Translations under genes and position numbers: made by a program
The notes under the pieces: generated by a model
Database searches by the model: none
Seen by the model: only the letters and a program-made list of their open reading frames with translations
What the model was told of the DNA's origin: nothing
Source of the DNA: Nitrososphaerota archaeon
GTDB taxonomy: Archaea; Thermoproteota; Nitrososphaeria; Nitrososphaerales; Gagatemarchaeaceae
Reading direction: 5' to 3'
Length of the DNA: 55,395 nucleotides
Assembly: GCA_029785615.1 (NCBI GenBank)
Contig: JAFLZH010000007.1
Location: forward strand, 263-55,657
Shown here: in pieces, positions 8,698 through 54,840 of the stretch
How positions within the stretch are numbered: position 1 is the first letter of the stretch
Layout of the letters: every line of letters begins with the position of its first letter

Positions 8698-8989
8698 CTT
8701 CTGGACGGACGAAGGGGTCTGGCACCCTGAAGCGTACAGATTCCTCTGGCTGGAGCATCATCTCTACCCCGTCCAGTGAGAGAACCTCATCGAGAGGTTC
8801 AACCAGGCCCTGAAGGACAGGCTGGAGAACTTCGACGACCTCTTCCCCTGCTTCAGGGAGCATCGCGACCATCGACATGTCAGGAACTGTATTTCCATCT
8901 TCAGGTACTTCCACAACGTCATCAGAGAGCCGAACGACCAACCGGAGTATCTGAGGTTCATTCAGAGCCCTTCGGAGACCTTAAATTGA
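8698..8989 (+). mobile_element. C-terminal remnant of a DDE transposase (IS6/IS240-like), with an in-frame stop
   Basis: The frame reads WTDEGVWHPEAYRFL, meets TGA at 8777-8779, then continues in the same frame with NLIERFNQALKDR, FDDLFPCFREHRDHRHV and IFRYFHNVIREPN before a second stop at 8987-8989. These are the typical last blocks of archaeal IS6/IS240-like DDE transposases, including the ERFN-x-x-LKDR helix with its catalytic Glu. The N-terminal half and any terminal inverted repeats are missing. It is a dead insertion that probably truncated the flavoprotein gene. Confidence 0.75.
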
Positions 8990-9014
8990 CAGCGCCGCCC
9001 TGAGGCCCATAACC

Positions 9015-9022
9015 GTTATATC
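9015..9022 (+). promoter_or_regulatory. TATA box of the small membrane protein gene
   Basis: GTTATATC is centred about 31 nt before ATG 9050, giving an almost leaderless transcript. Confidence 0.65.
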
Positions 9023-9049
9023 TGCGCCTAAAGGGCAGGCAGATGTTTC

Positions 9050-9322
9050 ATGGCCAACGACAGGGCAATCGGCGGCGGGATTTTCGCAGGCAGCGTCATC
9101 GGCATAATCGTCTACGGCCTTTTGATCTTCTACTTCCCGCTCATCGTGCTGGAGATCACAGCGTTCGTTGCGGTCCTGGTCCTCCTCGCGATCCTCGCTT
9201 GGATCGGGTACACGATGGCGACGACACCGCCCCCTGAGCCGATAACCGACATCCCAGACTCTGCGCCCTCCTCGCCTTCGGACGCCACGGCCACAGGCAA
9301 GGAAGAGCAGAAGCCGGCGTAG
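9050..9322 (+). CDS. Small two-helix membrane protein of unknown function
   Basis: A 90-aa protein. Residues 8-30 (GGGIFAGSVIGIIVYGLLIFYF) and 32-55 are hydrophobic and form two adjacent membrane helices. The remaining 35 residues are Pro/Ser/Thr/Asp-rich and look disordered. No family is recognised. It is monocistronic, with a TATA box at the right distance and about 120 nt before the flippase gene. Confidence 0.7.
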   Translation: MANDRAIGGGIFAGSVIGIIVYGLLIFYFPLIVLEITAFVAVLVLLAILAWIGYTMATTPPPEPITDIPDSAPSSPSDATATGKEEQKPA

Positions 9323-9443
9323 CCTCGGCTGTTCCGCTGAACTCTCATTCGTCCGGTTCTCATCGCAGACGCGTCTTGCGCCCCATCCACTTTAATCAGG
9401 CCGTCGGGGGCCCGCGACACGCGGGAGCGTTGCGGTTGCGCCA

Positions 9444-24847: not shown

Positions 24848-25411
24848 ATGGGCCCGCTCCTATCCCTCCTCACGAAGAAGACGGGGTCTTCAGAGCTGGC
24901 GCTGGACGCGATAGCATCCGTGGCGGCCGCCGTCGGACTCCCAGGGCGAATAGAGCCGGACGAAGAGCTGGCAGGCCTCGCCCTCTGCGCCAGGGGGGAG
25001 AGCATCGAGGCGGTCTCGAAGCACCTCGGCTGGAAGGACTTCGAGAGGTTCTGTTCCAGCATACTTCGGGGGAGGGGATACAGGGTCAGAGAGAACATCT
25101 ATCTGAGAAAGCCCCGGGCGCAGATTGACGTCTTCGCCATGTCCGATCGGACCTCCCTGGCCGTGGACTGCAAACACTGGGCGAGGACCTCAGGGAGGGG
25201 GGCGCTGGCCGGTCTGGTCAGGGCGCAGCTGGTCAGGGCCAGAAGGCTCCATGACAGCCTGGACGGGACGGGGCCCATCGCGGCCGTGATACTCGTTATG
25301 GTAGACCCGGGGGAGCGGTTCGTGGAAGGCGGGGCAGTCGTCCCGATCTTCGCCTTCGGGGACTTCCTTGACAACATCGAGGCGCACCGGCGGATGCTCG
25401 ACCTAGTCTAG
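24848..25411 (+). CDS. PD-(D/E)XK family nuclease (Mrr/archaeal endonuclease-like)
   Basis: A 187-aa protein with a C-terminal restriction-endonuclease fold. Before the core is WKDFERFCSSILRGRGY, the helix with the first acidic residue. The core is RAQIDVFA, then the strand and motif AVDCKHW, i.e. Asp in IDV and D-x-K with Cys between. Hydrophobic strands AAVILVMV and VVPIFAFGDF follow. Archaeal relatives act on DNA in repair or defence; the role here is unknown. ATG 24848 was preferred to the upstream frame opening at 24797 because a GTTCAAATG element lies about 27 nt before it. Confidence 0.72.
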   Translation: MGPLLSLLTKKTGSSELALDAIASVAAAVGLPGRIEPDEELAGLALCARGESIEAVSKHLGWKDFERFCSSILRGRGYRVRENIYLRKPRAQIDVFAMSDRTSLAVDCKHWARTSGRGALAGLVRAQLVRARRLHDSLDGTGPIAAVILVMVDPGERFVEGGAVVPIFAFGDFLDNIEAHRRMLDLV

Positions 25412-25878
25412 GCCTTCGGCTCAGGTGGCGCCGCGCCGTAGGGGCTCATTAGGTCCTCCAGCTCCTTGAGCAGGCCGATGGGGTCGGGGACGTCTTTCAA
25501 TATCACCACGCCGAGCCCCTCGGGGGACCTGTGGCTCCCCTTGCCTCTCTTCAGCTCGACGTAGACGGTGCCGCACTTGAAGCGCCTGGCGAGCATCCCC
25601 TGCGAGTATGCCAGGCCCTGCATGTTGCTGTAGGGGATGTCAAGCCCCCTGCCGAAGCGCCTCCTGATGCTGATCCCGGTGTCCCCGAGGGTGTAGGTGG
25701 TGTACTCCTTGTTGTACATGTACACCCCGATGAAGGCGTAGGCGAAGCCCAGGAAGAGGAGGTAGCTCGGGAACGTCCTGGAGTTGATCCTGAGGAAGAC
25801 CGAGAGCACCGCTATGGCGACGGTCCCCTTGATGAGGCTCTTCGTCACATTGGACTTCAGTCGCCTTTCGGGTTCCAA
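25408..25878 (-). CDS. PH-domain (bPH2-like) membrane protein
   Basis: A 156-aa protein with two membrane helices (about 16-30 and 38-55) and a bacterial PH-like domain, marked by YTLGDTGISIRRRFGRGLDIPYSNMQ. Such proteins sit on the cytoplasmic face of the membrane; their ligand is usually unknown. TTG 25878 begins 9 nt after the stop of the peptide transporter ATPase gene dppF, so it is probably the last gene of that operon. Its 3' end overlaps the convergent nuclease gene by 4 nt. Confidence 0.65.
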   Translation of the reverse strand: MEPERRLKSNVTKSLIKGTVAIAVLSVFLRINSRTFPSYLLFLGFAYAFIGVYMYNKEYTTYTLGDTGISIRRRFGRGLDIPYSNMQGLAYSQGMLARRFKCGTVYVELKRGKGSHRSPEGLGVVILKDVPDPIGLLKELEDLMSPYGAAPPEPKA

Positions 25879-25887
25879 CGCCCTGCT

Positions 25888-26850
25888 CTAGTAAAGCCAG
25901 CAGGCCACTTCAACGTTGCCGGTCCTCCTCATGGCTGGCTCCTTCTCCTTGCACACGTCCATGACGTAAGGGCAGCGCGGGTGGAACCTGCAGCCTGTGG
26001 GAAGGCCCACCAGGCTCGGGACCTCCCCAGACGGCGGGACCAACTCATGGGTCTTGAGGGTAGGCACAGACTTCAGCAGCGCCTGCGTGTAGGGGTGCTT
26101 GGGGTTGGCGATCACCTCCTCCGTCGGGCCCTGCTCCACCACCTTCCCAGCGTACATCACAGCGATCCTGTCGGAGATGTAGCGGGCTACCGCGATGTTG
26201 TGGGTGATGAACAGGTAGGTGAGCTTCAGCTCGTCGTGGATGCGCGCCAGCAGGTTCAGGACCTGGGCCTGGACCGAGGCGTCCAGGGCCGAAGTAGGCT
26301 CGTCGAGTGCTATGAACGTCGGGTTCGAGATGATCGCCCTGGCCACGGCCACCCTCTGTCTCTGGCCTCCGGAGAGGTCCCTGACCCTCCTCTGCGCGAA
26401 GGTCTTCGCGTCCAGGCCTACGAGTGACAGGGCCGTGGCGAACTGTTCATCCTTGGACGCCTCGCCGACGTCGGACCTGTGGAGGGGCTCGGTGACTATC
26501 CCTTTGATGGACATTCTGGGGTCGATGCTGTCGGTGGGGTTCTGGAACACCATCTGCACCTGGCGGCGTATCCTCCGGTAGTCCTTCCTGGAGACCTTCT
26601 CGTCCATGAAGTAGAGGTCCCCCTTCGTCGAGGTCTCGAGGGTAGCCAGCATCCTCCCCAGGGTGGTCTTCCCGCTCCCGCTCTCGCCCACCAGCGCGAG
26701 CACCTCCCCTGGCATTATCTCGAAGTCAATCTCGTCGACTGCCTTTACCCATATCTTGGGCTGGCGCGAGACCAGCGACTCGACGAACCCCCTCTTGGAC
26801 GCCTCGAAGTACTTCGTGAGGCCCTTGGCCTTGAAGACCGTGTTAGTCAT
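25888..26850 (-). CDS. dppF: Oligo/dipeptide ABC transporter ATP-binding protein DppF/OppF
   Basis: A 320-aa ATPase: Walker A GESGSGKTT, the Q-loop segment MVFQNPTDSI, signature LSGGQRQRVAVARA, Walker B TFIALDEPTSALD and the H-loop ITHN. The C-terminal oligopeptide-transporter extension (GCRFHPRCPY and a CKEKEPAM segment) carries the Cys pattern that binds an Fe-S cluster or metal in DppD/DppF proteins. ATG 26850 overlaps the dppD stop by 8 nt. It pairs with DppD to power uptake through DppB/DppC. Confidence 0.95.
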   Translation of the reverse strand: MTNTVFKAKGLTKYFEASKRGFVESLVSRQPKIWVKAVDEIDFEIMPGEVLALVGESGSGKTTLGRMLATLETSTKGDLYFMDEKVSRKDYRRIRRQVQMVFQNPTDSIDPRMSIKGIVTEPLHRSDVGEASKDEQFATALSLVGLDAKTFAQRRVRDLSGGQRQRVAVARAIISNPTFIALDEPTSALDASVQAQVLNLLARIHDELKLTYLFITHNIAVARYISDRIAVMYAGKVVEQGPTEEVIANPKHPYTQALLKSVPTLKTHELVPPSGEVPSLVGLPTGCRFHPRCPYVMDVCKEKEPAMRRTGNVEVACWLY

Positions 26851-27808
26851 ACAGATGGCACCTGAGGAGCCTGTCCTCTGCCTGCTTGATGGCTGGGTTT
26901 TCGGCTTTGCATACGTCCATGACCTTCGGGCACCTGGGATGGAACCTGCAGCCTCCGGGAGGAGAGAGCATGTTGGGGGGCGACCCTGGGATCGACACCA
27001 GGTCTCCTTCCTTCTTCGACTTGTGGGGGATGCTATTGACCAGGGCGACCGTGTACGGGTGGAGGGGGTCCGTGACCACCCTGTCGACAGGACCGAGCTC
27101 GGACAGCTCGCCGGCGTACATCACCAGGAACCGGTCTGCGACCGTATATGCCACTGCCATGTCGTGGGTGATGAAGAGCACCGACATGCCATATTCGGCC
27201 TTCAGCTCCTTGATCAGCTTCATCACCTGCGCCTGGATGGTCACGTCCAGAGCCGAGGTAGGCTCGTCGGCGATCAGGATCTTCGGCTTCATGACCAGCG
27301 CCATGGCGATTACCACCCTCTGTATCTGGCCGCCGGAGAGCTCGTGGGGGTACCTCCGGAGGATGATCTCGGGATCGGGCATCCTGACCCCCTTCAGCCC
27401 GTCGATCACCACCCTAGTCGCCTCCTCCTCGTCGTACGATTCACCCCGCATCAGCCTCTGGGTCCGGATGGCCTCCAGCATCTGCCTGTCGACCCGTTTG
27501 ACCGGGTTGAGGCTGTTGAGAGGGTCCTGGAAGATCATGAACGCCTCGCTCCCCCTGTACGCCCTCAGCTCCCTCCCCTTCAGGGTGAAAACGTCCTTCC
27601 CGTCCACCGTCACGCTTCCCTCGTAGCTGGCGTTCGGCGGGAGGAGCCTGACTATGGCGTGCCCCAGGCTCGACTTGCCGCAGCCGCTCTCACCGACGAT
27701 GGCGACGCTCTCCCCCTTCTCCACGGAGAAGTCCAGCGACCTTATCGCTTCAAGGTTCCCATAAACGGTACGGTAGTTTACGCGAAGTCCCTTGACGTCG
27801 AGCAGCAA
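26843..27808 (-). CDS. dppD: Oligo/dipeptide ABC transporter ATP-binding protein DppD/OppD
   Basis: A 321-aa ATPase: Walker A GESGCGKSS, MIFQDPLNSLNP, signature LSGGQIQRVVIAMA, Walker B ILIADEPTSALD and H-loop ITHD. It ends with the GCRFHPRCP block of the peptide family. The start is TTG 27808, placed directly after the dppC stop codon with no gap, so translation is coupled. Confidence 0.95.
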   Translation of the reverse strand: MLLDVKGLRVNYRTVYGNLEAIRSLDFSVEKGESVAIVGESGCGKSSLGHAIVRLLPPNASYEGSVTVDGKDVFTLKGRELRAYRGSEAFMIFQDPLNSLNPVKRVDRQMLEAIRTQRLMRGESYDEEEATRVVIDGLKGVRMPDPEIILRRYPHELSGGQIQRVVIAMALVMKPKILIADEPTSALDVTIQAQVMKLIKELKAEYGMSVLFITHDMAVAYTVADRFLVMYAGELSELGPVDRVVTDPLHPYTVALVNSIPHKSKKEGDLVSIPGSPPNMLSPPGGCRFHPRCPKVMDVCKAENPAIKQAEDRLLRCHLYD

Positions 27809-28816
27809 CTAGTACGAAAGCCTCCCACCGACCATGTCCTGTATCCTGTCGCCGAGCAGTGAGTAGCAGACCACTATCGCCATGATGACGAGGCTCGGGA
27901 AGAGCGGGAACCACCAGGAGTGGGGTACGTACTGGAGCCCGGACGCTGCCATGGAGCCAAGCTCGGGCTGGCCGACCTGGACGCCTATCCCAAGGAAGGC
28001 AAGGGTAGAGTAGACCAGGATGACGTTCCCGAAGTCGAGGGTGGCTATGGCTACAATCGGATCTATGGCGTTTGGGAATATGTGCCTGATGATGATGCTG
28101 AGGGGGGACAGTCCGCTGAGCCTCGCTGCTTCTACGTACCCCCTTGACTTCAGGGTGAGCGCCTGCGCCCTGAAGAACCTGGCATATGTCGGCCACCATA
28201 CGATGGTCAGGGCGACCAGCACCACGGTGTATCCGTTCCCGAGGATCAGGGAGAGGGCTACGGCGAAGACTATAAGCGGGAATGCCAGGAACGCGTCCGT
28301 GACCCTCATCAGGATCTCGTCGGCCCAGCCGCCGAGGTAACCGGCAGAAATGCCGAGGAACATCCCTATCACAATGGCCGAGATGACTATCAGGACAGAA
28401 GCCAGAGCGTCCTTCGGTATCGCGTACAGTATCCTCGAAAGGATGCTCCGCCCCACCTCGTCGTAGCCGAATATCCCCACCGGGAAGTTGGCAAAGGTGG
28501 GGGGCGCGAGCGAGTTTGCGAAGTTGAACGTGAAGGGGTTGGAAGGCAGGATGGAATAGCTCAGGGCAAGGTTGTGCGTGTAGTCTGACACCGTCTCTAA
28601 GATTCCTTGTATCAGGCCGAACACGAAGAAAATCCCGATGCCGATGGCCCCGGTGAGGGCTATCTTATCTCTCCTGATGAACCCTGCTATGAACCGGAGG
28701 CCAGACGTCTCCCCCAGCGGCACCTCGGCCTCGTCGTGGACAGCTACGGTGCTGGAACGGCCCTTGCCCTTCAGCAGCCTGAGCCTCCTAGGCCGTCCGG
28801 GTTCTTCCGGTTCCAT
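27809..28816 (-). CDS. dppC: Peptide ABC transporter permease DppC/OppC
   Basis: A 335-aa permease with an N-terminal soluble stretch of about 50 residues, a first helix (AIGIGIFFVFGLIQG) and the BPD_transp_1 domain. The EAA loop is YVEAARLSGLSPLSIIIRHIFPN, where the ATPases dock. FGYDEVGRSILSRI before it is a family hallmark. ATG 28816 lies one base after the dppB stop. Confidence 0.94.
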   Translation of the reverse strand: MEPEEPGRPRRLRLLKGKGRSSTVAVHDEAEVPLGETSGLRFIAGFIRRDKIALTGAIGIGIFFVFGLIQGILETVSDYTHNLALSYSILPSNPFTFNFANSLAPPTFANFPVGIFGYDEVGRSILSRILYAIPKDALASVLIVISAIVIGMFLGISAGYLGGWADEILMRVTDAFLAFPLIVFAVALSLILGNGYTVVLVALTIVWWPTYARFFRAQALTLKSRGYVEAARLSGLSPLSIIIRHIFPNAIDPIVAIATLDFGNVILVYSTLAFLGIGVQVGQPELGSMAASGLQYVPHSWWFPLFPSLVIMAIVVCYSLLGDRIQDMVGGRLSY

Positions 28817-28817
28817 C

Positions 28818-29846
28818 CTAGGTCAGCCTCACCCGAGGGTCCATGATCCCGTAGAGTATGTCCGCTATGAAGTTCGCTATGATGACCGCCAGGCCCACCA
28901 CCACGGTGATGGCCAGGATGGCGGGGTAGTCGAGGTTGTATGCCGCGTTGACGAAGAAGAAGCCGATTCCATGGTAGGAGAATATGTCCTCGACCACCAC
29001 CGAGCCGCCGACGGTGAAAGCGAAAGACAGCGCCATGAGCGTGATGATCGGGATGATCGCGTTCCTGAACGCGGTCCCCCAGACCACCTGCCGCTTCGGG
29101 AGCCCCTTCATGTAGGCCAGTTTGACGTAGTCCTTGTCCAGGGAGTCCACCATGGTGGCCCTGGTGAGCCTGGTGATGCCGCCGAAGCTGATCACCGCTA
29201 TGGTCACCGCAGGCAGCACCAGGTGTCTGAGATAGCTGTAGAGATAGACCCACCTTTCAGCGAGTATCGCGTCTATGAGAGGGAGCCCGGTAACTGCGGG
29301 GGGGATGGCCAGGGTGGGGTTCGCGACTTGGCCGGTCGGGAGCAGACCCAATTCGTAGGCGAAGACCAATTGCAGGAAGACGCCCACCAGGAAGATTGGC
29401 GCGGCCCAGGTGCCGAGGTAGATCGCCTTTATCCCGTAGTCCGTCCCGGTGTTCCTGTTAGAAGCTGCGATGGCCCCGGTGAATATCCCGATTATGATTC
29501 CCAGTATGGTCCCCAGCACCACCATGTTCAGCGTGACTGGGAAGTACTCCTGGAGAACCAGGAGCTCTGGGATGCCGTACTGGGTGTCGGTCCCCAAGTT
29601 CCCATGGAAGATGCCGGTCACGTAGTTGTAGAACTGGACGTATATCGGCTGATAGAAGCCCATCCTATGGGCAATCTGATTGAGTTCGGGGACTGTGAAG
29701 TGCGTGCCCACATACAGCCTCGCCAAGTCCTGTGGCGTGGGGGCGACCAAGTGTATGATCGCGAACATGAGCGCGATCATGATCAGGATAGTTATGACTG
29801 CATTCACGGCCCTTCTTGCGACGAACATCAGGAACCGGGAATCCAA
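28818..29846 (-). CDS. dppB: Peptide ABC transporter permease DppB/OppB
   Basis: A 342-aa permease: an N-terminal helix (AVNAVITILIMIALMFAI), a long outer loop with the NQIAHRMGFYQPIYVQ segment, and the BPD_transp_1 domain with the coupling loop DYVKLAYMKGLPKRQVVWGTAFRN. It leads the dppBCDF-PH operon. TTG 29846 is the likely start. A minus-strand TATA-like CTATAAGAG near 29876-29888 lies upstream. Confidence 0.94.
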   Translation of the reverse strand: MDSRFLMFVARRAVNAVITILIMIALMFAIIHLVAPTPQDLARLYVGTHFTVPELNQIAHRMGFYQPIYVQFYNYVTGIFHGNLGTDTQYGIPELLVLQEYFPVTLNMVVLGTILGIIIGIFTGAIAASNRNTGTDYGIKAIYLGTWAAPIFLVGVFLQLVFAYELGLLPTGQVANPTLAIPPAVTGLPLIDAILAERWVYLYSYLRHLVLPAVTIAVISFGGITRLTRATMVDSLDKDYVKLAYMKGLPKRQVVWGTAFRNAIIPIITLMALSFAFTVGGSVVVEDIFSYHGIGFFFVNAAYNLDYPAILAITVVVGLAVIIANFIADILYGIMDPRVRLT

Positions 29847-30283
29847 ATATCAGCGAGCCGATGTCTGCTCCTTGACGCTCTTATAGATTGTTATCAACCT
29901 CAGACGCTATCAGCCATCTCATGTTCGCGCCGCGTGCCGGCTACCATGGGCCTGATTCCTCAGGGACGGTGACCTGCCCTGTCCACCTGCCATGCGAGTC
30001 ACAGGGCCCGCGCTTGCGATGCCGCCTCTGGCGTCGTCTCGTCGACCAGCACTGCTCGACGATGACCGCCTTAGGGCTGCCTGCCTCGTACCGGCGTCCC
30101 CCGGGCTATGCTCAGGACGCCTTCCGAGGACCGTCCTTCCCGTTTGAAACACGGATCAGTTCCCCATCCGCCAACTGAGATAGCATACGTTGGACAAATT
30201 TCGTGAAACATTCAAGAAAATACGAGTATGTTTTGGGTGCTAATAATTCTTATATAACGTATGAGTCGTTTTCCGGCTTGAGA
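29847..30283. other. Divergent intergenic region between dppB and the binding-protein gene
   Basis: I find no gene in these 437 bases. The left part (29890-30130) is GC-rich without a conserved ORF. The last 120 bases are AT-rich and contain the TATA box of the binding-protein gene (30249-30258). The minus-strand promoter of the dpp operon lies near 29880. Confidence 0.5.
30249..30258 (+). promoter_or_regulatory. TATA box of the peptide-binding-protein gene
   Basis: CTTATATAAC is centred 30 nt before ATG 30284. This sets the start of the binding protein downstream of three earlier in-frame candidates. Confidence 0.7.
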
Positions 30284-32608
30284 ATGTTACTAAGTCAACG
30301 CAAAGCAATTAGTACTTCAGCAACAGTCGCCATCATCGTAGTAATACTCGTAATCGCCGGCGTCGCCGGCTATTTCGTGCTCACCTCCTCGCCTAGCACG
30401 ACCACCACAAGTACCTCGACCTCGTCGTCCAGCACTCAGTCGACCTCGTCGTCGAGTACTCACTCGACCTCGAGCAGTTCGTCGAGCAGCTCTTCGACGT
30501 CGACCGTAGCCGCGACGCCGCTGTCGGTCTCTTCGTGCACTTCTGCGATATCGGGGACCATCCCCGCCGCGCAGTCGTTCACCTACACCGCCAGCAACTC
30601 GACTACGAACTACAACTATCCGGTCACCCCTACTCCGCCCACCACTGGCCCAGGCCAGTATGGGCCGACCAACTCTAGCCTCCTCACCGACGAGTCCATC
30701 GGGACTCCGCCGGACTACCTCGACCCAGCAGCAGGGTTCTACTCGCAGGATGTCACATACAACAACGCAGTGTTCCAGAACCTGGTCATGTACAACGGTA
30801 ACAGCGGCACACAGATACTTCCTGTGGTCGCAGACCAGTACTGGATCACCAACGGTGGCTGTACGAACGTCTTCCACATTAGGCCGGGTGTCACCTTCTC
30901 CGACGGGACCCCCGCAACTGCCTATGACCAGTGGTTCTCGATCGTACGCACCCAGTACATCAACGCGCCTTCCGGCATCAGCCTGTACAACTGGAACGGG
31001 GTCTCGTACAACCTGACCTCGGGCGCTCAGTACGGCTCTGGCAGCTACTCCTACAACACCATGGGCAACCAAATCCCGTGGGGGCTGAGGCTAGCTATCC
31101 AGCACGTCACCGGGCTCCAGACTGCAGCTGACACACCGGCGGCCGTTAACCTGGCAGTAGCAGCGCTGAACCAGATGCTCAGCCACTTCAACCCCTCGAA
31201 CTCCACGCAGGCCTCTATCATGCAGTATCCGGAGCAGGCCTACGTCGCTAACTCGACGTACTTCACCGCCAACTACCTGAGGACCATGGGACCCTTCGGC
31301 CCGCAGCTATGGGCAGGGTTCGACGGCCAGCAGGTGGTCGAGCCGGCGTTCGTCGATGCGCACGGAGGGGTAGCGAACAACACTGCCAACTCCTACTTCG
31401 ACACCCACGGCGGTATCGGGACCGGACCCTACGTAGTATCGTCAGTAGGGCCTGGGAACAACCCAGTCGTGCTGACTGCGACCCCCCACTACTGGGCGGG
31501 TCAGTCGTCTGCCACGAACATCCCGGTAGTCGCCAGACCAGCGAGCATCAGCACGGTAGTCATGGCACCCTTCTCGACCAACGCACAGGCCGAGGGTGAC
31601 TTCGGGAGCAACAAGGCACAGCTGTCGGCCGAGTCGCCGTTCCTGTACAGTGCGATGTACGACTCGCTCCCTGCCAACGTAAAGTCCACCTTCGCCTTCG
31701 ACCAGATATTCCAGGGCATCGGCGCATACGACTTCGCGCTGTTCGCCCAGTTCAACACCTACCAGGCTCCGACCAACTATACCAGCTTCAGGCAGGGTAT
31801 GGCGGCCGCCCTCAACTACACGGCGCTCAACCAGCCCAACTACTTCAACGGCACCGCGTATGCGGGCTATTTCGTCGGGCCACTGACCCCAGCCTACGCC
31901 TACTACAACTCACCGAACTACCCACTCCCAACGCAGAACACCACCGCAGCTATCAACTTCTTCCAGAAGTTCGGCGTGCAGTCGCACACCTACATGATCA
32001 TCCCGGCTGACCTGACGTTGTCCAACGGGACGACGGTCTCGGCAGGGACGGTCATCGGTGACAAGAGCGGCTCGCAGCTTCAGCCATTCAAGCTCTACTA
32101 CGCCGTCCCACTGGTAGGGTCTCTTGAGGTCACTCTAACGGTGATCCAGAACTCCCTGAGCCAGTTCGGCGTCACCGCGGTGCCGTTCGGGACGACCACG
32201 ACGGAGCTTGACATACTCGACTCCAAGCCACAGACCTATCCGGCCATCCAGCTCGTCGGCTGGGGCGCCGACTTCAACGACCCATTCCTCGGGATGTTCT
32301 TCCCACTGATGACCCCGTCACCGTACAACGGGTTCTACACCAACTCCACAGTGAACAACGAAGCGACGGCATGCGAGTTCCCAGCGTCTACGGCTCAGTC
32401 GCAGACCTGCGCAACCACGCTCTACAAGATGGCGCAACAGAACCAGATATGGATCTACACACCAATCCCAGAGATTCCTGCAGGGCAGCCTAACGCGGGC
32501 TTCCCAACGAACTTCTTCTTCGTCCAGCCATACGTACATGGTGTAGTCGATAACCAGTACGTCGGCGGATTCTACAACCTCATCTACTACCAGCCAGTCA
32601 ACGTATAG
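30284..32608 (+). CDS. dppA: Extracellular solute-binding protein family 5 (peptide-binding DppA/OppA-like)
   Basis: A 774-aa membrane-anchored binding protein. Residues 13-33 (TSATVAIIVVILVIAGVAGYFVL) are a signal anchor. A Ser/Thr stalk of about 45 residues follows, typical of archaeal binding proteins and probably O-glycosylated. The SBP_bac_5 domain starts near residue 125 with DYLDPAAGFYSQD and VFQNLVMYNG, and ends with the WGADFNDPF and LYKMAQQNQIWIYTP segments. It captures peptides for DppBCDF, encoded divergently. It is larger than bacterial DppA (about 530 aa) because of inserts in the domain. A hairpin terminator follows. Confidence 0.92.
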   Translation: MLLSQRKAISTSATVAIIVVILVIAGVAGYFVLTSSPSTTTTSTSTSSSSTQSTSSSSTHSTSSSSSSSSSTSTVAATPLSVSSCTSAISGTIPAAQSFTYTASNSTTNYNYPVTPTPPTTGPGQYGPTNSSLLTDESIGTPPDYLDPAAGFYSQDVTYNNAVFQNLVMYNGNSGTQILPVVADQYWITNGGCTNVFHIRPGVTFSDGTPATAYDQWFSIVRTQYINAPSGISLYNWNGVSYNLTSGAQYGSGSYSYNTMGNQIPWGLRLAIQHVTGLQTAADTPAAVNLAVAALNQMLSHFNPSNSTQASIMQYPEQAYVANSTYFTANYLRTMGPFGPQLWAGFDGQQVVEPAFVDAHGGVANNTANSYFDTHGGIGTGPYVVSSVGPGNNPVVLTATPHYWAGQSSATNIPVVARPASISTVVMAPFSTNAQAEGDFGSNKAQLSAESPFLYSAMYDSLPANVKSTFAFDQIFQGIGAYDFALFAQFNTYQAPTNYTSFRQGMAAALNYTALNQPNYFNGTAYAGYFVGPLTPAYAYYNSPNYPLPTQNTTAAINFFQKFGVQSHTYMIIPADLTLSNGTTVSAGTVIGDKSGSQLQPFKLYYAVPLVGSLEVTLTVIQNSLSQFGVTAVPFGTTTTELDILDSKPQTYPAIQLVGWGADFNDPFLGMFFPLMTPSPYNGFYTNSTVNNEATACEFPASTAQSQTCATTLYKMAQQNQIWIYTPIPEIPAGQPNAGFPTNFFFVQPYVHGVVDNQYVGGFYNLIYYQPVNV

Positions 32609-32613
32609 AAAAA

Positions 32614-32655
32614 GTCCTGGACCGAGAGGTCTGGGACCCTTCTTCTGTTTTTCTC
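32614..32655 (+). terminator. Hairpin terminator after the binding-protein gene
   Basis: GTCCTGGACC and GGTCTGGGAC (32614-32623 and 32628-32637) form a 10-bp stem with two G-U pairs and a GAGA tetraloop. It is followed by a pyrimidine tract with TTTTT (32648-32652). It begins six bases after the stop codon. Confidence 0.6.
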
Positions 32656-32707
32656 GAACCCAGCGGAGGCTCCGCACCTGCAGCCGCGCGGAGGAACCTG
32701 GAGGAAA

Positions 32708-32716
32708 ACTATATCA
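32708..32716 (+). promoter_or_regulatory. TATA box of the ABM-like gene
   Basis: ACTATATCA is centred 28 nt before TTG 32740, predicting a leaderless transcript. Confidence 0.6.
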
Positions 32717-32739
32717 TCAGCGTAGTCCTTCTCTTCTCC

Positions 32740-33126
32740 TTGCACGGCGCCGACCGGTCGGGTGAGGGTTTTACCGCCACGCCGGAGGGGGGCGCCCCCG
32801 TCAGAGGAGAGGGGAAGCCTTCGGTAGCCAGGGTGTGGCACGGGGTCACGCCGAAGTCGAAGCGCTCCGAGTTCATCCACTACGTCGGGGTGACGAGCAT
32901 GGAGGAGATCAGGAAGACGGAGGGGAACCTCGGCGCCTGGCTCTTCACCAGGGACGTGGGGGACAACACCGAGTTCCTACTGGTCTCCATGTGGGAATCA
33001 GAGGAGGCCATCAAGAAGTTCGCAGGGAGCGACATCAAGAAGGCGAAGTACTACACCAGGGACAGCGAGTATCTGGCGGAGCTCGAGCCCAGCGTCACCC
33101 ACTTCGAAGTGTCAGGGAAGGTCTAG
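32740..33126 (+). CDS. Antibiotic-biosynthesis-monooxygenase (ABM)-like dimeric alpha/beta-barrel protein
   Basis: A 128-aa protein. From residue 29 it has the ABM fold: VARVWHGVTPKSK, GNLGAWLFTRDVGDNTEFLLVSMWES, EEAIKKFAGSDIKKAKYY and the final THFEV strand. Such small proteins act as monooxygenases, haem-degrading enzymes or unknown stress proteins. The first 28 residues are Gly/Glu/Pro-rich and may be disordered. TTG 32740 matches the TATA spacing. The gene converges on lysA. Confidence 0.75.
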   Translation: MHGADRSGEGFTATPEGGAPVRGEGKPSVARVWHGVTPKSKRSEFIHYVGVTSMEEIRKTEGNLGAWLFTRDVGDNTEFLLVSMWESEEAIKKFAGSDIKKAKYYTRDSEYLAELEPSVTHFEVSGKV

Positions 33127-33140
33127 GCTCAGGCCTGCCT

Positions 33141-34400
33141 TCAGAACCTCCGGCGAGAGACCAGGCCCCCCCTGCCGTCCTGCACCGCAGCCACCGCGGC
33201 GAGGGGTCTCATGTTGTAGGTGCTCGACATGGAAGAGCCGTAGGCTCCCGCGTCAAGGATGGCCAGGAGGTCCCCCTGGGCGAGGCTGACCCCTAGCCGC
33301 CTCGCCTTCCCGAACACGTCAGTGGTCTCGCACACCGGGCCCGCGACGTCGTAGGAGGCGGCGGACCGCTTCGCCGAGGAGGTCCAGGCGGGGACGATCT
33401 CATGATAGGCGCCGTAGAGGGCCGGCCTGATGAAGTCGTTCATCCCGGCGTCGACCAGGGCCCAGCGGACCCTCCCTGACTTCTTGACGTAGTTCACCCT
33501 GGTGAGGAGGACGGTGGAGTCCGCGACCACCCACCTCCCGAGCTCGAAGACCGGCCTCGCCCTCCCTCCCCAGCGGGACCTGGCGAAGACGCCCGCCGTG
33601 GCCTCGGCGTAGTCGGCGACCGGGAGCTCTCTGTCAGCGCTCCTGTAGGGGAAACCGAGCCCGCCGCCGAAGTTGAACTCCTCCACCTTGAAGCCAAATG
33701 ACTCCAGCTCTCCCGCCAAGTCGATCATCTCCTCGGTCTGCCTTCTGAAGACACCTGCGTCGGTGACCTGGGAGCCGATGTGGGAGTGGATGCCCGCTAC
33801 CCTTACGAACTTCAGCTTCTTCCCCTCCTTCTCGCAGAATCTCACAACCTCGTCCCTGGCTACCCCGAACTTGTGCTCCCTCCCCCCGGTCGCCAGCCCG
33901 GCGTGGGTCTCCGCCCTTATCCCGAAGTTCACCCTGAACCCGAGGCGCACCCCCGCGGACCCAAGGCTGCGGCAGAGCGAGTCGGCGTCCCTTGCCTCCT
34001 GCACCGATTCCGCGTTGATCATCCCCACCCCGGCCGCGATCGCTGCGGCAAGCTCCTCCTTCGACTTGCTGGGTCCGTCGAACACCATGTCTCCGGGCGC
34101 CACCCCTGCCTTCCTTGCGAGCTCTATCCCAGCTACCGACACGATTGTAGCCCCCGCGCCTCTCCTGGCAAGGGCCTTGACGACCGGGATTGTCGAGTTG
34201 GACTTGTATGCGAAGGATATCAGGACGTCCCGGGACCTCGCCGTGAGCGCGGCCTTCGCCTCCTCAAACCTGTCCGTCACCCTGCCTACGTCAGTGACAT
34301 AGAGCGGCGTCCCGTACTTCTTCGCCAGCGACTCGGCGCCGACCCCGCCTATCTTCAGCGAGGTCCCTTCCCTGGAAAGGTGCGGCCGCCGGTGATCCAT
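33141..34400 (-). CDS. lysA: Diaminopimelate decarboxylase
   Basis: A 419-aa PLP enzyme that decarboxylates meso-diaminopimelate to L-lysine. The PLP lysine is in SFAYKSNS; HIGSQV and the phosphate-binding FNFGGGLGFPY follow. In the C-terminal barrel VCETTDVF carries the active-site Cys (usually CESGD), and GAYGSSMSSTYNMR is the substrate/PLP-contacting segment. ATG 34400 is chosen: the upstream extension to 34796 is antisense to the NlpC/P60 gene, and a TATA element (34420-34428) is 24 nt away. The usual bacterial-type dap genes are not nearby, and many Nitrososphaeria make lysine through the AAA pathway, so the source of the diaminopimelate is an open question. Confidence 0.88.
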   Translation of the reverse strand: MDHRRPHLSREGTSLKIGGVGAESLAKKYGTPLYVTDVGRVTDRFEEAKAALTARSRDVLISFAYKSNSTIPVVKALARRGAGATIVSVAGIELARKAGVAPGDMVFDGPSKSKEELAAAIAAGVGMINAESVQEARDADSLCRSLGSAGVRLGFRVNFGIRAETHAGLATGGREHKFGVARDEVVRFCEKEGKKLKFVRVAGIHSHIGSQVTDAGVFRRQTEEMIDLAGELESFGFKVEEFNFGGGLGFPYRSADRELPVADYAEATAGVFARSRWGGRARPVFELGRWVVADSTVLLTRVNYVKKSGRVRWALVDAGMNDFIRPALYGAYHEIVPAWTSSAKRSAASYDVAGPVCETTDVFGKARRLGVSLAQGDLLAILDAGAYGSSMSSTYNMRPLAAVAAVQDGRGGLVSRRRF

Positions 34401-34419
34401 TCGCCCACAGCCGGGGCCG

Positions 34420-34459
34420 TATCTATTTCTCCGTTGCCCAGGCCGACCAACGGTTAAAA
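34420..34459. promoter_or_regulatory. Divergent promoters of lysA and the NlpC/P60 gene
   Basis: The lysA TATA (minus strand AAATAGATA, 34420-34428) is 24 nt from ATG 34400. The NlpC/P60 TATA (GGTTAAAA, 34452-34459) is 26 nt from GTG 34482. The two genes start back to back within about 80 bp, which suggests shared control. Confidence 0.6.
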
Positions 34460-34481
34460 CCGCCGCGTGGGTCGAAGCCGC

Positions 34482-35189
34482 GTGAAGGGAGTCGCGGTAG
34501 GCGTCGCCGACCTGAGAGCCAAACCGAAGTTCAGGTCCGAGCGGGTCTCGCAGCTGATCTACGGGGAAGAGGTCCGCGTCCTCGGCTCCGAGGAGGACTA
34601 CTACAGGGTCATGGGGAGGGACGGGTACGAAGGGTACATCCAGAAGTCCCTCGTCGACGAGCTGGACGGGGAGAGGGCGTACAAGCTGGCCGGCCGGCAC
34701 CAGGCCGAAGGCGTCCAGTTCCCCTTCGGGTCCTACCTGAGCGAGAAAGAGGCCAGGCGGTTCAAGGTCCCACGCAAGCTGCTCGTCCCTGTCCACAGCG
34801 CTGCGGACCCCGTGGCCCTGGCCAAGGACTTCCTGGGGGTGCCCTACCTCTGGGGCGGGACTTCAGACTTCGGCTACGACTGTTCAGGTTTCACCCAGAG
34901 GCTGTTCCGGTACTCCTGCGTGGAGCTCCCCAGGGACGCAGGCCAGCAGAGGGATGCGGGGGGGATCGTGGACGGCTTCGGTGCCGCCGGGAGGGGGGAC
35001 CTGGTGTTCTTCACCGGCCACGTGGCCATCTACCTAGGGGGGATGAAGATCATACACGCCAACCTCGGCCACGGGGGGGTCTCGGTCACCGACCTGTCGG
35101 ACAGGAGCGCGTACTCGCGGCGCCTTCTTGGCATCTTCGAGGGGATACGACGCTTCGACGGGGACGACTTCACTCGCGGACGTGCCTGA
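34482..35189 (+). CDS. NlpC/P60 cysteine peptidase with bacterial SH3 domains (YkfC-like)
   Basis: A 235-aa protein. Residues 1-60 are an SH3b domain (VADLRAKPKFRSERVSQLIYGEEV). A second SH3-like segment lies at 66-104. The NlpC/P60 domain (110-235) has Cys134 in DCSGF, His180 in GHVAIYLG and His192 in IIHAN, the full catalytic triad. The layout resembles Bacillus YkfC, a cytosolic enzyme that cleaves gamma-D-Glu-diaminopimelate bonds of imported murein peptides. No signal peptide is present, so it should work in the cytosol. The substrate is inferred. GTG 34482 was chosen over GTG 34467 by TATA spacing. Confidence 0.85.
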   Translation: MKGVAVGVADLRAKPKFRSERVSQLIYGEEVRVLGSEEDYYRVMGRDGYEGYIQKSLVDELDGERAYKLAGRHQAEGVQFPFGSYLSEKEARRFKVPRKLLVPVHSAADPVALAKDFLGVPYLWGGTSDFGYDCSGFTQRLFRYSCVELPRDAGQQRDAGGIVDGFGAAGRGDLVFFTGHVAIYLGGMKIIHANLGHGGVSVTDLSDRSAYSRRLLGIFEGIRRFDGDDFTRGRA

Positions 35190-36069
35190 GTATCGACGGC
35201 TCGAGCTTAGGCTGGCCGATCTTCAGCAGCCCCTCGGTCACCCGGACCCAGTTGCTGTCCTTCGAGCAGACCTCCTTCAGCATCCGGAGACCGCGCCGCC
35301 TGTCCTTCCCCGAGCTGAGGAGCCCGATGGCCACCCAGTACTTCAGCTCCCGCTCCTCGGGGACCAGCCCCATCCCCTTGGTGTAGGCGTCCAGGGCTTC
35401 TTCGGGCCTGTCGGAGCTGAGGAGGTCGTCCCCTCGGTCCACCCATCTGTATCCGCGCTGGTACCTCAGGAGGCGCCTTAGCTCGACCAGGGGCTCGGGG
35501 TGGTCCTCGACCCTGAGCTCGAAAAGCCTCCCCTCCCAGTGATTCGGCTTCAGCTCCGGGCCGACGACGAGCAGCGCTGCCGACTGCTTCCCCCTCAGGT
35601 CTCCCCCCTCCGCCTGGGCCGCGTCCAGGGCGGCGAGGAGCCTCTCAGGGAGGGGGGAACCTCTCTCTCCTTCGAACGCCCTCCTCATCGCACCCCAGAC
35701 CCTGTGGTTCTCCATTATGTTCCCCTGGCAGCTGAAACCGTTTCCGGTCGCATGTCCGGCGCAGGGGATGCACTTCTCCCCGGTGTGCGCGGCGACCTCC
35801 CCCTGTGCGTCCACCATTGCCACCTGCCTCACCTCCGGCTTGACGTCCGCCTCAAGGAGAGACGTCAGCGCGCGCTTCGCTGTCATACCCCCTGACATCA
35901 TCTCGATGCCCAAGGGTCCGTAGCGGACGTCGAGCGTCGCCTGGGTGGCCACGGCCCCCACCCCGGCCCTCGCCCAGGGGACGGCAGAGCCCACGGAGAA
36001 GTAGTGCGACTGGACCGCCACTCCCATCTCGCCTGTCTTTTCGTCTCGGGCGACGATGGAGTATGTCAA
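35170..36069 (-). CDS. DUF1028 (Ntn-hydrolase-like) protein with a C-terminal TPR-like region
   Basis: A 299-aa protein. Residues 1-200 are a DUF1028 domain, starting TYSIVARDEKTGEMGVAVQSHYF with GAVATQATLD and GNIMENHRVW later. The family is a self-processing Ntn-type hydrolase of unproven function, often encoded near peptidases. The last 90 residues resemble two TPR helical pairs (LSSDRPEEALDAYTKGMGLVP). TTG 36069 is chosen by TATA distance (about 31 nt). The 3' end overlaps the convergent NlpC/P60 gene by 20 nt. Confidence 0.82.
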   Translation of the reverse strand: MTYSIVARDEKTGEMGVAVQSHYFSVGSAVPWARAGVGAVATQATLDVRYGPLGIEMMSGGMTAKRALTSLLEADVKPEVRQVAMVDAQGEVAAHTGEKCIPCAGHATGNGFSCQGNIMENHRVWGAMRRAFEGERGSPLPERLLAALDAAQAEGGDLRGKQSAALLVVGPELKPNHWEGRLFELRVEDHPEPLVELRRLLRYQRGYRWVDRGDDLLSSDRPEEALDAYTKGMGLVPEERELKYWVAIGLLSSGKDRRRGLRMLKEVCSKDSNWVRVTEGLLKIGQPKLEPSILRHVRE

Positions 36070-36094
36070 GGCCTCTCGGCGGAGTCCGAGAATC

Positions 36095-36105
36095 CATTAT
36101 TAAAC
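36095..36105. promoter_or_regulatory. Single bidirectional TATA element between DUF1028 and the DapB-like gene
   Basis: CATTATTAAAC lies 31 nt before TTG 36069 (minus) and 27 nt before TTG 36127 (plus). No other A/T element is present in this 57-bp gap, so one TATA appears to serve both genes. Confidence 0.6.
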
Positions 36106-36126
36106 GCCGGGGGGCGCCTCGGGTCC

Positions 36127-37062
36127 TTGGTCAGGGTCGTCCTATGCGGCTTGGGCGCCATGGGGACAGAGATCCTCAAGCATCTGCTAGAAAGGGGTCA
36201 CGCGGTCGTCGGGGTGATCGACGCCGACCCGGACAAAGCAGGGAAGACTGTGGCCGAGCTCACGGGCCTCCCGCTCGGCGTTCGGGTCCACCAGTCGGTG
36301 CAGTCCGCCCCCCTCGCCGACGCGGAGGTGGCGGTGTTCGCCGCCCGGTCGCGGGTGGAGGACGTGGCCGGGGACATAGCCCACCTGCTTTCTGCAGGGC
36401 TCGACGTCGTCACCGACACAGAAGAGATGGCCTATCCCAGCCACGCCGGTGGGGACGAGGCAGGGCGGCTCGACGCCATCGCGAGGGAGAAGGGAGTCAC
36501 CCTGGTCGGGGTGGGGGTGAATCCGGGGTTCGTCATGGACTGGGTCCCGGCGGTCATAGCCTCAGCCTCAAAGAACCCGACGCGGATCCACGTGGTGCAC
36601 AGCGTCGACCTCTCCAGGAGGCGCCAGGCGGTGCAGAGGAGAGCGGGGGTCGGCCTGGGCCGGGCCAAGTTCGAGAAGGAACTCGCCGAGGGGAAGCTAG
36701 GCCACATCGGGCTCGCAGAGTCGGCGCACCTCGTTGCCCTCTCGCTCGGGAGGGATCTCGAAGGCGCCGGCGAAGGGACGTTCCCCGTGATGGGCTCGGA
36801 GGACTACGTGATGGGGGTGAGGCAGTTCGCCGAGGGGAAGGCCGGAGACTGCGCGATACGCCTCGACCTCGAAATGACCACCACCTCGGCAGACTTCGAC
36901 GTCATAGAGGTCAGCGGGGATCCTGTGATCAAAGTAAGGTTCGAGAAGGGCGTGTTCACGGAGTCTGCGACCGTCGCCATGGTCGTCCACGCGGTCGAGC
37001 GGGTCGGCAGGGCCCCGGCCGGGCTCATCACCATCCTCGACCTCCCGCTGGCCGTGCGGTGA
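36127..37062 (+). CDS. DapB-like / diaminopentanoate dehydrogenase-like oxidoreductase
   Basis: A 311-aa NAD(P)-dependent dehydrogenase. The Rossmann motif is VLCGLGAMG near the start, with the acidic IDADPDK after beta-2. A DTEEMAYPSHAGG loop and GVNPGFVMDW segment match the dihydrodipicolinate reductase-like family that includes 2,4-diaminopentanoate dehydrogenase of ornithine breakdown. It probably acts on a diamino or keto-amino acid. TTG 36127 was chosen by the TATA spacing; the frame is open upstream to 36004 but that part is antisense to DUF1028. Confidence 0.72.
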   Translation: MVRVVLCGLGAMGTEILKHLLERGHAVVGVIDADPDKAGKTVAELTGLPLGVRVHQSVQSAPLADAEVAVFAARSRVEDVAGDIAHLLSAGLDVVTDTEEMAYPSHAGGDEAGRLDAIAREKGVTLVGVGVNPGFVMDWVPAVIASASKNPTRIHVVHSVDLSRRRQAVQRRAGVGLGRAKFEKELAEGKLGHIGLAESAHLVALSLGRDLEGAGEGTFPVMGSEDYVMGVRQFAEGKAGDCAIRLDLEMTTTSADFDVIEVSGDPVIKVRFEKGVFTESATVAMVVHAVERVGRAPAGLITILDLPLAVR

Positions 37063-47203: not shown

Positions 47204-47722
47204 ATGAGCGGAGAAGGAGGCGGCGACAGAAGGAGAGACCTGAGAGACATGCTCGACGAGCTCGACAGGTACTTCGAGGACTTCGAGAAGGACATCGAGG
47301 ACACGGTGAGGAACGCGTTCTTCGGGCATGACCGACAGAGCAGCCCGTTCATCGCAGGGTTCACCTTCAACATGGGCCCGGAGGGGAAGCCGTCGGTCCA
47401 GGTCTTCGGGAACAGCCCGGTGCGCCGGGACGGGTTCCGGTCGCCCATCAACGAGCAGGTCGTCGACGAGAAGGCAGGGTTGCTCAGGGCGATCCTGGAG
47501 ATGCCCGGGGTCGAGAAGGAGGACATCAGCATCGACGCTACCGAGGAGAGCGCCGTCGTCACGGCGTCGAAGGGGGAGAAGCGCTATCGCGCCGAGCTTG
47601 GACTGAAGGCCGCCATCGATCCGGAGTCGGGGAAGGCGGAGTATCGGAACGGGATGTTGGAAATTTCGTTCTCATTGAAGGACAAGCCTAATAAGGGCTT
47701 CAGGAGGGTAAACGTTGTCTGA
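47204..47722 (+). CDS. Small heat-shock protein, Hsp20/alpha-crystallin-like
   Basis: A 172-aa protein. The N-terminal 60 residues are acidic and helical, and residues 85-172 form the alpha-crystallin-like domain with [25 protein letters not shown] and the final G-x-L-like [13 protein letters not shown] strand. It belongs to the archaeal Hsp20 group encoded next to Cdc48. It overlaps cdc48 by 8 nt, so holding of misfolded proteins and unfolding by Cdc48 are probably coupled. Expression should respond to stress through the upstream operator. Confidence 0.82.
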
Positions 47723-50700
47723 GAGTGGAGCCGGAGTGAGCCAGCAGCAGGTCCAACTGAAGGTCCTCGAAGCATACACGCGCGACGTTGGCAGAGGGGT
47801 CGCGAGGATCGACTACGACGCCATGGACGCGCTCGACGCATCCACCGGTGACGTCATCGAGATCAAGGGGAAGAGGCGGACTGTAGCGAAGTGCCTCCCG
47901 CTGTACCCGTCGGACGAAGGGCGGGGGATAGTCAGGATAGACGGGCTCATCAGGAACAACGCTGGCGTAGCCATAGGCGACGTCGTCGTCGTGAAGAAGG
48001 TGAAGGCACCGCCGGCGGAGAAGGTCGTCGTAGCGCCGCTGGAGGCGGTCCCGCCCATAGACGAGAGGTACCTCGCCGACGCCCTCGAGAGCGTCCCGGT
48101 GACGAAGGGGGACAACATCATGATACCATACTTCGGCGGAAGGCTGACCTTCCAGGTGGTCGGGGTAAGCCCGGTCGCCGACGCCGCGCTGATCACCCAG
48201 AGGACCGTGTTCGTGATCTCGGAGAAGGGAGAGGCCCTCCGGGGCGTCCCCCAGGTGACCTACGAGGACATCGGCGGGCTGAAGGACGAGATCCAGAAGG
48301 TCCGCGAAATGATAGAGCTCCCTCTGCGGCACCCGGAGATATTCGAGAAGCTCGGGGTCGAAGCGCCCAAGGGGATACTCCTCTACGGCCCGCCCGGATG
48401 CATAGTTGGCGATTCCCTCATCGCGCTGGAGAACGGCGGACTGATGAGGATAGACGAGCTCGCGCGGGGGATGGTTCCTGGGGTGTATCTTGCAGACCTT
48501 CCCGTCTACCCACCCGCGAGCGCGAAGGCACTCCACATCTATGATGTCCCGGAGACCATACAGGTAATCACTGAAACTGGGAAACGACTGAGAATGACAA
48601 CCAACCACCCCCTGATGACAGACGGAGGGTGGAAGGAAGCCGAAAAGCTGCAGCCAGGTGAACGGGTCAAGACGATTCGCTGGATTCCGTCGCCTAGCCA
48701 GTACGTCATAGTCTCCGATACCATAGACATGGAACGGCTCCACACACATCCTGCAATACCCAAAATCTGGGATGAGCAAATGGGCGAACTGTTCGGCATT
48801 TTCATCGCCGAGGGAACCGCGGGCAGGGAGAGGGTGTTCTTCACAATCGAAAAATTCGAAGAAGAACTCGCGGCCCACATCCGGAAGGGGATGGGGCTCT
48901 TCGCGGTCGAGGGGTACACGGTCCCGAAGAAAGGAAAGCAATGCAACGTCCTCAGATTCGACAACAGAGGGCTGGCCGACTTCTTCAGGCGGTACTGGTC
49001 CAAGGAGGAGAAGAGGGTTCCCTCTCCGATCCTGATGTCCCCGAACACCGTGGTCGCGGCATTCCTGAGGGGCCTATTCGAAGGAGATGGCTACACCAGA
49101 ATGGGTGGAAGATATTACGGTGTCTTCCTCAAGAGCAAACACAGGAAACTGCTCGAAGAGGTCCAGACCCTCCTGCTGAGGTTCGGAATCAACTGCAGGA
49201 TACATGGGAAGGGATACGTCACCAAGGGCGGCAAGCAGTCCGCCTCGTATGTGCTTGCCATCAGGGGCAAAGACGGAGTCCAAAAATTCAAGGACAGCAT
49301 CGGTCTGATTTCGACCAGGAAGAGTGGAAGCCTCAAGGCCATTTTGGGCAAATACCGAAGGAACCTGAGCTATCTCAAAGACGACTTCGAGAGGATCAAG
49401 GAGGTAGAGAGGCTGCAGGGATGGCAGAGGGTATACGACTTTGAGGTGCCGAGCACTCACTCGTTCTTCTCGAACGGGATACTGAGCCATAATACTGGCA
49501 AGACGTTACTGGCGAAGGCCGTGGCGACGGAGAGCAACGCCCACTTCATTCCGATAAGCGGCCCGGAGATAATGTCCAAATTTTATGGGGAATCGGAAGC
49601 TAGACTCAGAGAAATCTTCAAAGAAGCGAAGGAAAAAGCCCCAACAATCATATTTATCGACGAGATAGATTCCATCGCGCCCAAGAGGGAGGAAGTAACT
49701 GGTGAGGTTGAACGAAGAGTCGTTAGCCAACTCCTGTCCCTGATGGACGGGCTGGAGGCCAGAGGAAAGGTGATTGTGATAGCGGCCAGCGTCACTGGCG
49801 ACACTCCGATCCTAGTAAGGGACAAGGATGGTCGCGTAGAACTTACGCCAATCGGAAAGTTCGTCGATTCATTCTACAGCGACGGTGAAGAAGGAGTAGA
49901 GAAGTCGGCAGAGGGATTTCAGGTACTAGGACTGCAACCGAAGAAGTCGGCGAACCCGAAGTTCGCGAAGTTCACTTTCTTCGGAGGGAGCAAGTTCCAG
50001 CCCTTCCGAGGCGTGTTCAGACACAAGGTAAAAGAAGTCTACGAGATTGAGTATATCGGAGGAAGGGCGAGGACCACCGGAAACCACTCGGTGTTCATCA
50101 GGACGCCTCACGGCATCGAGGCGAAGAGGGTGGATCAGCTCAATGTGGGCGACGTTCTCGTTGATCTCCCGTTCAAGGCAAATAGGTCGAGGAAGGATCT
50201 GACGGAGATAAGGGCGCACGTGTTCGAAGAACGGCCCCTCCCGACATTTGAGCTCTACGACAGTGAAGCGACACAGGCTTACAACGAATCCCTCGTCCTC
50301 CAGGACGTCCCTGGACCGAACGGCCAGTCTCACCTCTTGGCGATTCGTGCAGGAGCAAATGCTTCGACTGTCCAGAGGTGGAGGCATAGCGGCACGATGC
50401 CTGATTCGGCACGCTGGGAAGAGGAGGGCATACCAAAGAAGGTCACACTGACGCCGGGCCTGAGCAGGCTCTTTGGCTACTACGCAGCAGAGGGCTCATC
50501 GGAGCAGAAGGAAGCGACCTTCACTTTCTCCAGGGAGGAGAGGTCCTTCGTCGAAGACGTAAAGTCGCTAATGTTCGAGATATTCAAGGTCCGCCCCTCA
50601 ATCGAGCGCGAGCACAACAACGCGTACTCGTTGTACTACGAAAGGAAACCCGTCGCCTCGCTCTTGGGCGCGTTATTCGGGCACAATGCTCACGAGAAGC

Positions 50701-54691: not shown

Positions 54692-54692
54692 G
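54684..54692 (+). promoter_or_regulatory. TATA box of the tRNA-Arg gene
   Basis: GCATATAAG overlaps the end of the UDG gene and is centred 27 nt before the tRNA 5' end at 54715. Confidence 0.65.
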
Positions 54693-54714
54693 CGGGCCAC
54701 TTTGACCGCAGCCT

Positions 54715-54840
54715 GGGCCCGTAGCCTAGACTCCTGCAAGGGGAAGCACGTGGATAGGGATATCCATGGTTGCCCCAAACACGGATCAGGGCATCAGCCT
54801 GCGGAGCTGAGGGTCGCCGGTTCGAATCCGGCCGGGCCCG
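54715..54840 (+). tRNA. tRNA-Arg (anticodon GCG) with an apparent D-loop intron
   Basis: The acceptor arms GGGCCCG (54715-54721) and CGGGCCC (54833-54839) pair perfectly, with discriminator G54840. The T-arm GCCGG-TTCGAAT-CCGGC and the anticodon arm TCAGC-CTGCGGA-GCTGA are also perfect; the anticodon is GCG (54801-54803). The D-stem is GCCT (54724-54727) with GGGC (54789-54792), but the D-loop between is 61 nt instead of about 10. Removing roughly 54732-54782 would give a normal loop with the GG pair at 54783-54784. Archaeal tRNAs do carry such noncanonical introns; I could not find a textbook bulge-helix-bulge. Confidence 0.85.

Follow-up and report, generated by a model that had tools for sequence, protein, structure and literature searches.

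We analyzed a 55,395-nucleotide stretch of DNA (the window) from a Nitrososphaerota archaeon of the family Gagatemarchaeaceae, in which the genes for diaminopimelate decarboxylase (lysA) and an NlpC/P60 cysteine peptidase (nlpC) lie side by side next to the genes of a dipeptide (Dpp) importer. We consider it likely that this gene set is a lysine salvage pathway fed by the bacterial cell wall. Archaea themselves have no murein, and some of them attack murein. In the proposed pathway, the Dpp-type importer and its binding protein would bring bacterial murein peptides into the archaeal cell, and the cytosolic NlpC/P60 peptidase would cut the bond between gamma-D-Glu and diaminopimelate (DAP) to free meso-DAP. 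LysA, judged by its family match above cut-off, would then decarboxylate meso-DAP to L-lysine, while the other product, L-Ala-D-Glu, would be hydrolyzed by peptidases. The murein may come from dead bacteria, and live turnover could be a source too. The genes in the window are as follows.

25888-26850, minus strand: dppF-like ATPase of a Dpp/Opp importer (PRK11308 dipeptide ABC ATP-binding model, 316 bits, cut-off 408; scanned against NCBIfam only)
26843-27808, minus strand: dppD/oppD-like ATPase (ABC_tran and oligo_HPY; OppD model 317.7 bits, cut-off 575)
27809-28816, minus strand: dppC-like permease (BPD_transp_1, 111.7 bits)
28818-29846, minus strand: dppB-like permease (domain scan and cross-genome comparison)
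30203-32608, plus strand: SBP_bac_5 substrate-binding protein, dppA (99.5 bits)
32740-33126, plus strand: ABM-domain protein between dppA and lysA (28 bits, cut-off 23.1)
33141-34400, minus strand: lysA, diaminopimelate decarboxylase (TIGR01048 equivalog model, 377.7 bits, cut-off 297.9)
34401-34466, no strand: 66-bp space between lysA and nlpC in the sequence, from which both genes read outward
34467-35189, plus strand: nlpC, YkfC-like cysteine peptidase with SH3b (SH3_3/SH3_16) and NLPC_P60 domains (domain scan, modelled fold and residues)
35170-36069, minus strand: DUF1028 protein (245.6 bits)
about 36130-37062, plus strand: dehydrogenase with the Pfam domain DAP_DH_C

The sequence-only reading of this DNA had placed a Dpp importer and its binding protein near lysA and an SH3-NlpC/P60 gene, and every gene was found in its place, with the Dpp/Opp genes adjoining the lysA-nlpC pair; the ABM gene was absent from that reading. 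By eye, the binding protein has a membrane segment at its N-terminus and a Ser/Thr-rich linker. Two gene pairs are divergent, lysA with nlpC (66 bp between them) and DUF1028 with the dehydrogenase (about 60 bp), and the 3' ends of nlpC and DUF1028 overlap by 20 bp. The window belongs to an assembly that resembles a metagenome-assembled genome (MAG) of 1.39 Mb in 32 contigs (G000, 90.9% complete). Bacterial contamination was rejected, as a TBP-like gene (named by eye), CDC48 and a class I lysyl-tRNA synthetase lie in the window and other genomes show synteny at this locus, once on a 1.7-Mb contig (G015).

We then compared 61 genomes, 31 of which belong to the genus, including that of the window. 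Twelve of the 61 have a LysA at least 60% identical, and a 13th (G018) has fragments, the gene being truncated at the contig end. G049 has a LysA at 37% identity, and the remaining matches, at 28% or less, were read as a paralogue. The nlpC peptidase was found in exactly the 13 lysA genomes, adjacent and divergent to lysA in all of them. The suggested linkage of the two genes is conserved. Since the flanking genes are also syntenic among genus genomes, synteny alone proves little. As a contrast we used 15 dehydrogenase loci from genomes lacking the pair (stretches of 4.6-20 kb, several of which stop at a contig end), in which ABM, lysA and nlpC gave no match. Gene g37258 adjoins the dehydrogenase in all 15 of these loci, and nine have divergent dppBCDF genes with permeases about 30-40% identical. 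Of the 13 lysA-nlpC genomes, 12 carry the dppB type of the window (at least 69% identity); the exception is G012, whose contig stops just beyond the ABM gene. The type also occurs in G030 (62% complete), whose contig stops before reaching the lysA side, and a dppB relative at 57% identity is present in G011, which lacks the pair.

Genes of lysine synthesis were compared next. DapB_C was found in none of the 13 and in 3 of the 61 overall, one being G049, where it adjoins lysA, and DapF was found in none of the 61, G049 included. The check for a DAP pathway thus came out as the salvage idea predicts for DapB and DapF; DapA and DapL were not searched, a reservation that belongs with those weighed below. 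LysX-family matches above cut-off were present in 51 of the 61 genomes, and a tree of 55 sequences split into two well-supported clades. One clade, mostly with the motif FKGAQ, is ArgX-like and lies by argG, argH, argC, argB and argD (named by eye) in G000, G005 and G015. The other, mostly with FKNTV, is LysX; in six relatives from outside the family (G038, G043, G045, G047, G057 and G059) its neighbor is a homocitrate-synthase-like gene. According to the available part of PMC10433800, an Asn-Thr signature marks LysX, and the ArgX residues differ.

Eleven of the 13 lysA-nlpC genomes carry the ArgX-like clade only, and two (G018, 70% complete, and G021, 64% complete) have no match above cut-off; the LysX clade was not found in any of the 13, the window's genome (91% complete) included. 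LysX is present in 11 of the 18 other genus members, and the remaining 7 lack both LysX and the pair, so that LysX and the pair co-occur in no genus genome (Fisher test, 4.4e-4, uncorrected for descent). In a five-gene tree of 18 genomes, the LysX-bearing G001 groups with the lysA-nlpC genome G019 (support 99), and the LysX/pair state has therefore undergone more than one change or a loss. Since DapB, DapF and LysX were not found in the 91% complete assembly, salvage perhaps replaces the cell's own lysine synthesis.

The best solved relatives of LysA, which exceeds its equivalog cut-off, are the DAP decarboxylases 2p3e and 1twi/1tuf. The nlpC open frame has 243 residues and the protein 240; with only about 3 residues of open frame before the start, a signal peptide is excluded, as the sequence-only reading had supposed. 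By modelled fold and residues (Y127 W129 D138 C139 S140 R156 D157 A158 H185 H197), the peptidase fits the known subfamily of YkfC and dipeptidyl-peptidase VI (DPP VI). The catalytic residues are C139, H185 and H197, and Y127, W129, D138, S140 and R156 correspond to Tyr226, Trp228, Asp237, Ser239 and Arg255. In the model the SH3b domain packs on the catalytic domain, and a search of solved structures with SH3b only returned only DPP VI entries at E < 1e-4. D157 occupies the position of Asp256; of the 12 aligned genus sequences, 10 have Asn there, so that most relatives lack this subfamily feature. Y54 of the motif DGYEG is the likely counterpart of Tyr118 in SH3b, by alignment to 3npf.

The pair is not confined to the genus. 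In the 75 remaining loci, searched by tblastn with few queries so that counts are lower bounds, LysA occurs in at least 7, dppB in 14, MR_MLE in 26, LdcA in 1 and DUF1028 in 1, and five other lineages have lysA and nlpC adjacent, fused or within one cluster. In WOR-3, two closely related MAGs (L122 and L123, both at 8741-10804) have a 687-residue frame that fuses LysA, SH3 and NlpC/P60. The order in a Zixibacteria locus is LysA, alanine racemase, NlpC, C39 peptidase, LD-carboxypeptidase, MR_MLE and Amidase_3. In Acetothermia (L134) it is MR_MLE, SBP, DppB, DppC, LysA and NlpC, the MR_MLE matching an L-Ala-D/L-Glu epimerase model best, below cut-off; Bipolaricaulota (L124) has the same kinds of genes. 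An Anaerolineae locus holds Dpp genes, LysA (by tblastn), an M55 D-aminopeptidase, an NlpC-alpha/beta hydrolase fusion and MR_MLE. DapB_C was found in none of the seven LysA-bearing outside genomes (completeness not given); two Thermoplasmata without a linked lysA have a DapB_C match at about 50 bits.

In the Thermoplasmata MAG L118, LysA (TIGR01048, 354.7 bits) and an NlpC with 52% identity to that of the window form a divergent pair. A LysA tree across phyla groups the Thermoplasmata LysA with G049, apart from the genus (long branches meet, and placement of a single row is unsure), which suggests that the pair was assembled separately in Thermoplasmata and in the genus. Farther along in L118 are SBP_bac_5, a BadF-type kinase and a GH3 enzyme. 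In each of the three Thermoplasmata loci (L118, L119 and L120), nlpC has GH3 matches no more than about 5 kb away, two of them contig-end fragments; the BadF-type kinase, dpp genes or NamZ, an exo-beta-N-acetylmuramidase present in L120, occur in single loci. These are possibly archaeal murein-degradation loci.

Muropeptide scavenging, as first proposed, was partly supported, in its proposed core of import, cytosolic cut and LysA, by the linkage and by the failure to find DapB and DapF; its further members were not. The dehydrogenase, called DapB-like, carries DAP_DH_C and is not DapB; among NCBIfam models it fits 2,4-diaminopentanoate dehydrogenase best (182.7 bits, cut-off 400). At 50% identity or more it is present in 28 of the 61 genomes, 15 of which lack lysA and nlpC, and it was rejected because it follows the lineage rather than the pair. 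DUF1028 is missing at the locus in one of the 13 (G008) and present in one of the 15 pair-less loci (G033), and is an optional member at best. One outside hint ties DUF1028 to murein-peptide use: a Zixibacteria locus (L127:9977-14973) holds nlpC, an MR_MLE fragment, an amidase-like gene and DUF1028 with TPR.

Several observations weigh against the salvage pathway. Activity, transport and expression are predictions. LD-carboxypeptidase (LdcA, S66) was sought and found in none of the 13 genomes (1 of 61 overall, G032), and an Ala-Glu epimerase (YkfB) was not recognized among the three MR_MLE proteins scored, namely the one strong match of G000 (91% complete) and the two strongest of four in G015. 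These were rejected as epimerases because sugar-acid dehydratase models score better; the matches of the other 11 genomes were unscored. According to the available part of PMC9928106, chlamydial YkfC also cuts the tetrapeptide to give mDAP-D-Ala, so LdcA would be dispensable for the NlpC cut, and free DAP would then need another step. DapF was not detected even in G049, which has lysA and dapB, and its absence alone is therefore weak evidence. All comparison genomes are MAGs, and four of the 13 are 60-70% complete. Moreover, identical or near-identical stretches are common to different bins whose other genes differ (G029:C161 and G000:C30; G004:C11 and G006:C11), which marks mixed bins. Genome counts thus overstate independence, and the 13 genomes are not 13 independent cases; the best single cases are G015 (8 contigs, 100% complete) and G022 (3 contigs, 88%).

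The contrast with LysX is weakened as well. The homocitrate synthase model gave no match above cut-off in the 61 genomes, and no match at all in 20 of the 31 genus genomes. Among these are 6 of the 11 LysX-bearing members, including the one-contig G005, so LysX members may not make aminoadipate via the known route either. Two lysA-nlpC genomes (G004 and G022) have full-length matches at 274-289 bits (cut-off 413.6), a range in which relatives such as isopropylmalate synthase are also caught and not distinguished.

The strongest competing explanation is catabolic: murein peptides would be one kind among many peptides used for carbon and nitrogen, LysA would be a by-way, and lysine would come from other imported peptides. 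The genome of the window has three further dppB-like permeases, the 20 genus genomes without a homocitrate synthase match suggest amino-acid import (the model also catches relatives), and the failure to find LdcA and a recognized epimerase points the same way. On the other hand, every nlpC of the genus has LysA as its partner, WOR-3 carries the two as a fusion, and LysX was not found in genomes bearing the pair. We regard the catabolic explanation as unlikely, though a serious contender. Somewhat less probable is a substrate other than the tripeptide with free L-Ala, such as gamma-D-Glu-DAP or muramyl-linked peptides. The change of Asp256 to Asn in most archaeal relatives speaks for it, as does the fact that 4 of the 12 genus sequences and all three Thermoplasmata sequences no longer have the presumed SH3b Tyr (equivalence inferred), whereas the protein of the window retains both residues.

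That LysA ends an unrecognized DAP synthesis route, with the peptidase as a chance neighbor, is highly improbable: LysA does score above the DAP decarboxylase cut-off and the G049 lysA does adjoin dapB, but the DapB and DapF counts led us to reject a place for lysA in DAP synthesis, and the pair recurs in five other lineages. Least credible is that the peptidase serves against bacteria as a weapon or wall hydrolase, for although archaeal peptidoglycan hydrolases kill bacteria (PMC12352652, available part), this peptidase has no room for a signal peptide and a modelled SH3b-gated recycling fold, and its partner decarboxylase plays no part in wall attack.

Beyond lysine salvage itself, we suggest tentatively, at slightly less than an even chance, that these archaea gave up lysine synthesis and obligately need DAP from bacterial walls, which would bind their nutrition to the death or turnover of bacteria, and that the LysA-NlpC module was assembled independently in archaea and bacteria and became a bifunctional fusion enzyme in WOR-3. 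If so, these archaea would obtain an essential amino acid from murein, by means of a specific pair of enzymes in genomes where a lysine pathway was not found. This would give a testable molecular reason why uncultured archaea depend on bacteria. DAP or murein peptide would be a growth supplement for cultivation, and the module, fusion included, a marker of the same salvage in other genomes.

Elsewhere in the window, the class I lysyl-tRNA synthetase (52398-54014) shares the stretch with the lysine salvage genes, and the CDC48-type AAA ATPase (47715-52376) contains an intein with a LAGLIDADG domain. Two adjoining adenylate/guanylate cyclase-TPR proteins, archaeal, lie at 4437-8503. A tmRNA called by ARAGORN (54513-54927) overlaps open frames and is probably a false positive.

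We found no paper that couples lysA and NlpC/P60 as a lysine source in the open-licence literature, which omits most subscription papers, and a paper on Gagatemarchaeaceae (PMC10640624) mentions neither lysine, auxotroph, peptidoglycan, dipeptide, lysA nor NlpC. Not found in print, then, is a coupling with LysA that would supply lysine in archaea without detected DAP synthesis. Archaeal peptidoglycan hydrolases likewise act on bacterial murein, and their discussion leaves scavenging open; however, they kill bacteria, and the main text, in the part available, is without NlpC, lysine or diaminopimel- (PMC12352652). Compared with Bacillus dpp-ykf/YkfC and DPP VI, the archaeal locus adds LysA, and the YkfB epimerase and LD-carboxypeptidase of dpp-ykf were not found in the archaeal genomes searched. 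The YkfC subfamily ranges mainly over four bacterial phyla in the portion of its literature available, whereas the system of the window is archaeal. E. coli MpaA/YcjG similarly frees DAP from the murein tripeptide under nutrient limitation, but MpaA is an unrelated peptidase, and the available part of the report mentions no LysA partner (PMC2954226). In Chlamydia trachomatis, Opp import has been proposed alongside an NlpC/P60 YkfC that frees mDAP (PMC9928106, available part). There the cell recycles its own murein and the mDAP goes to new murein, whereas the archaeal DAP would go to lysine.
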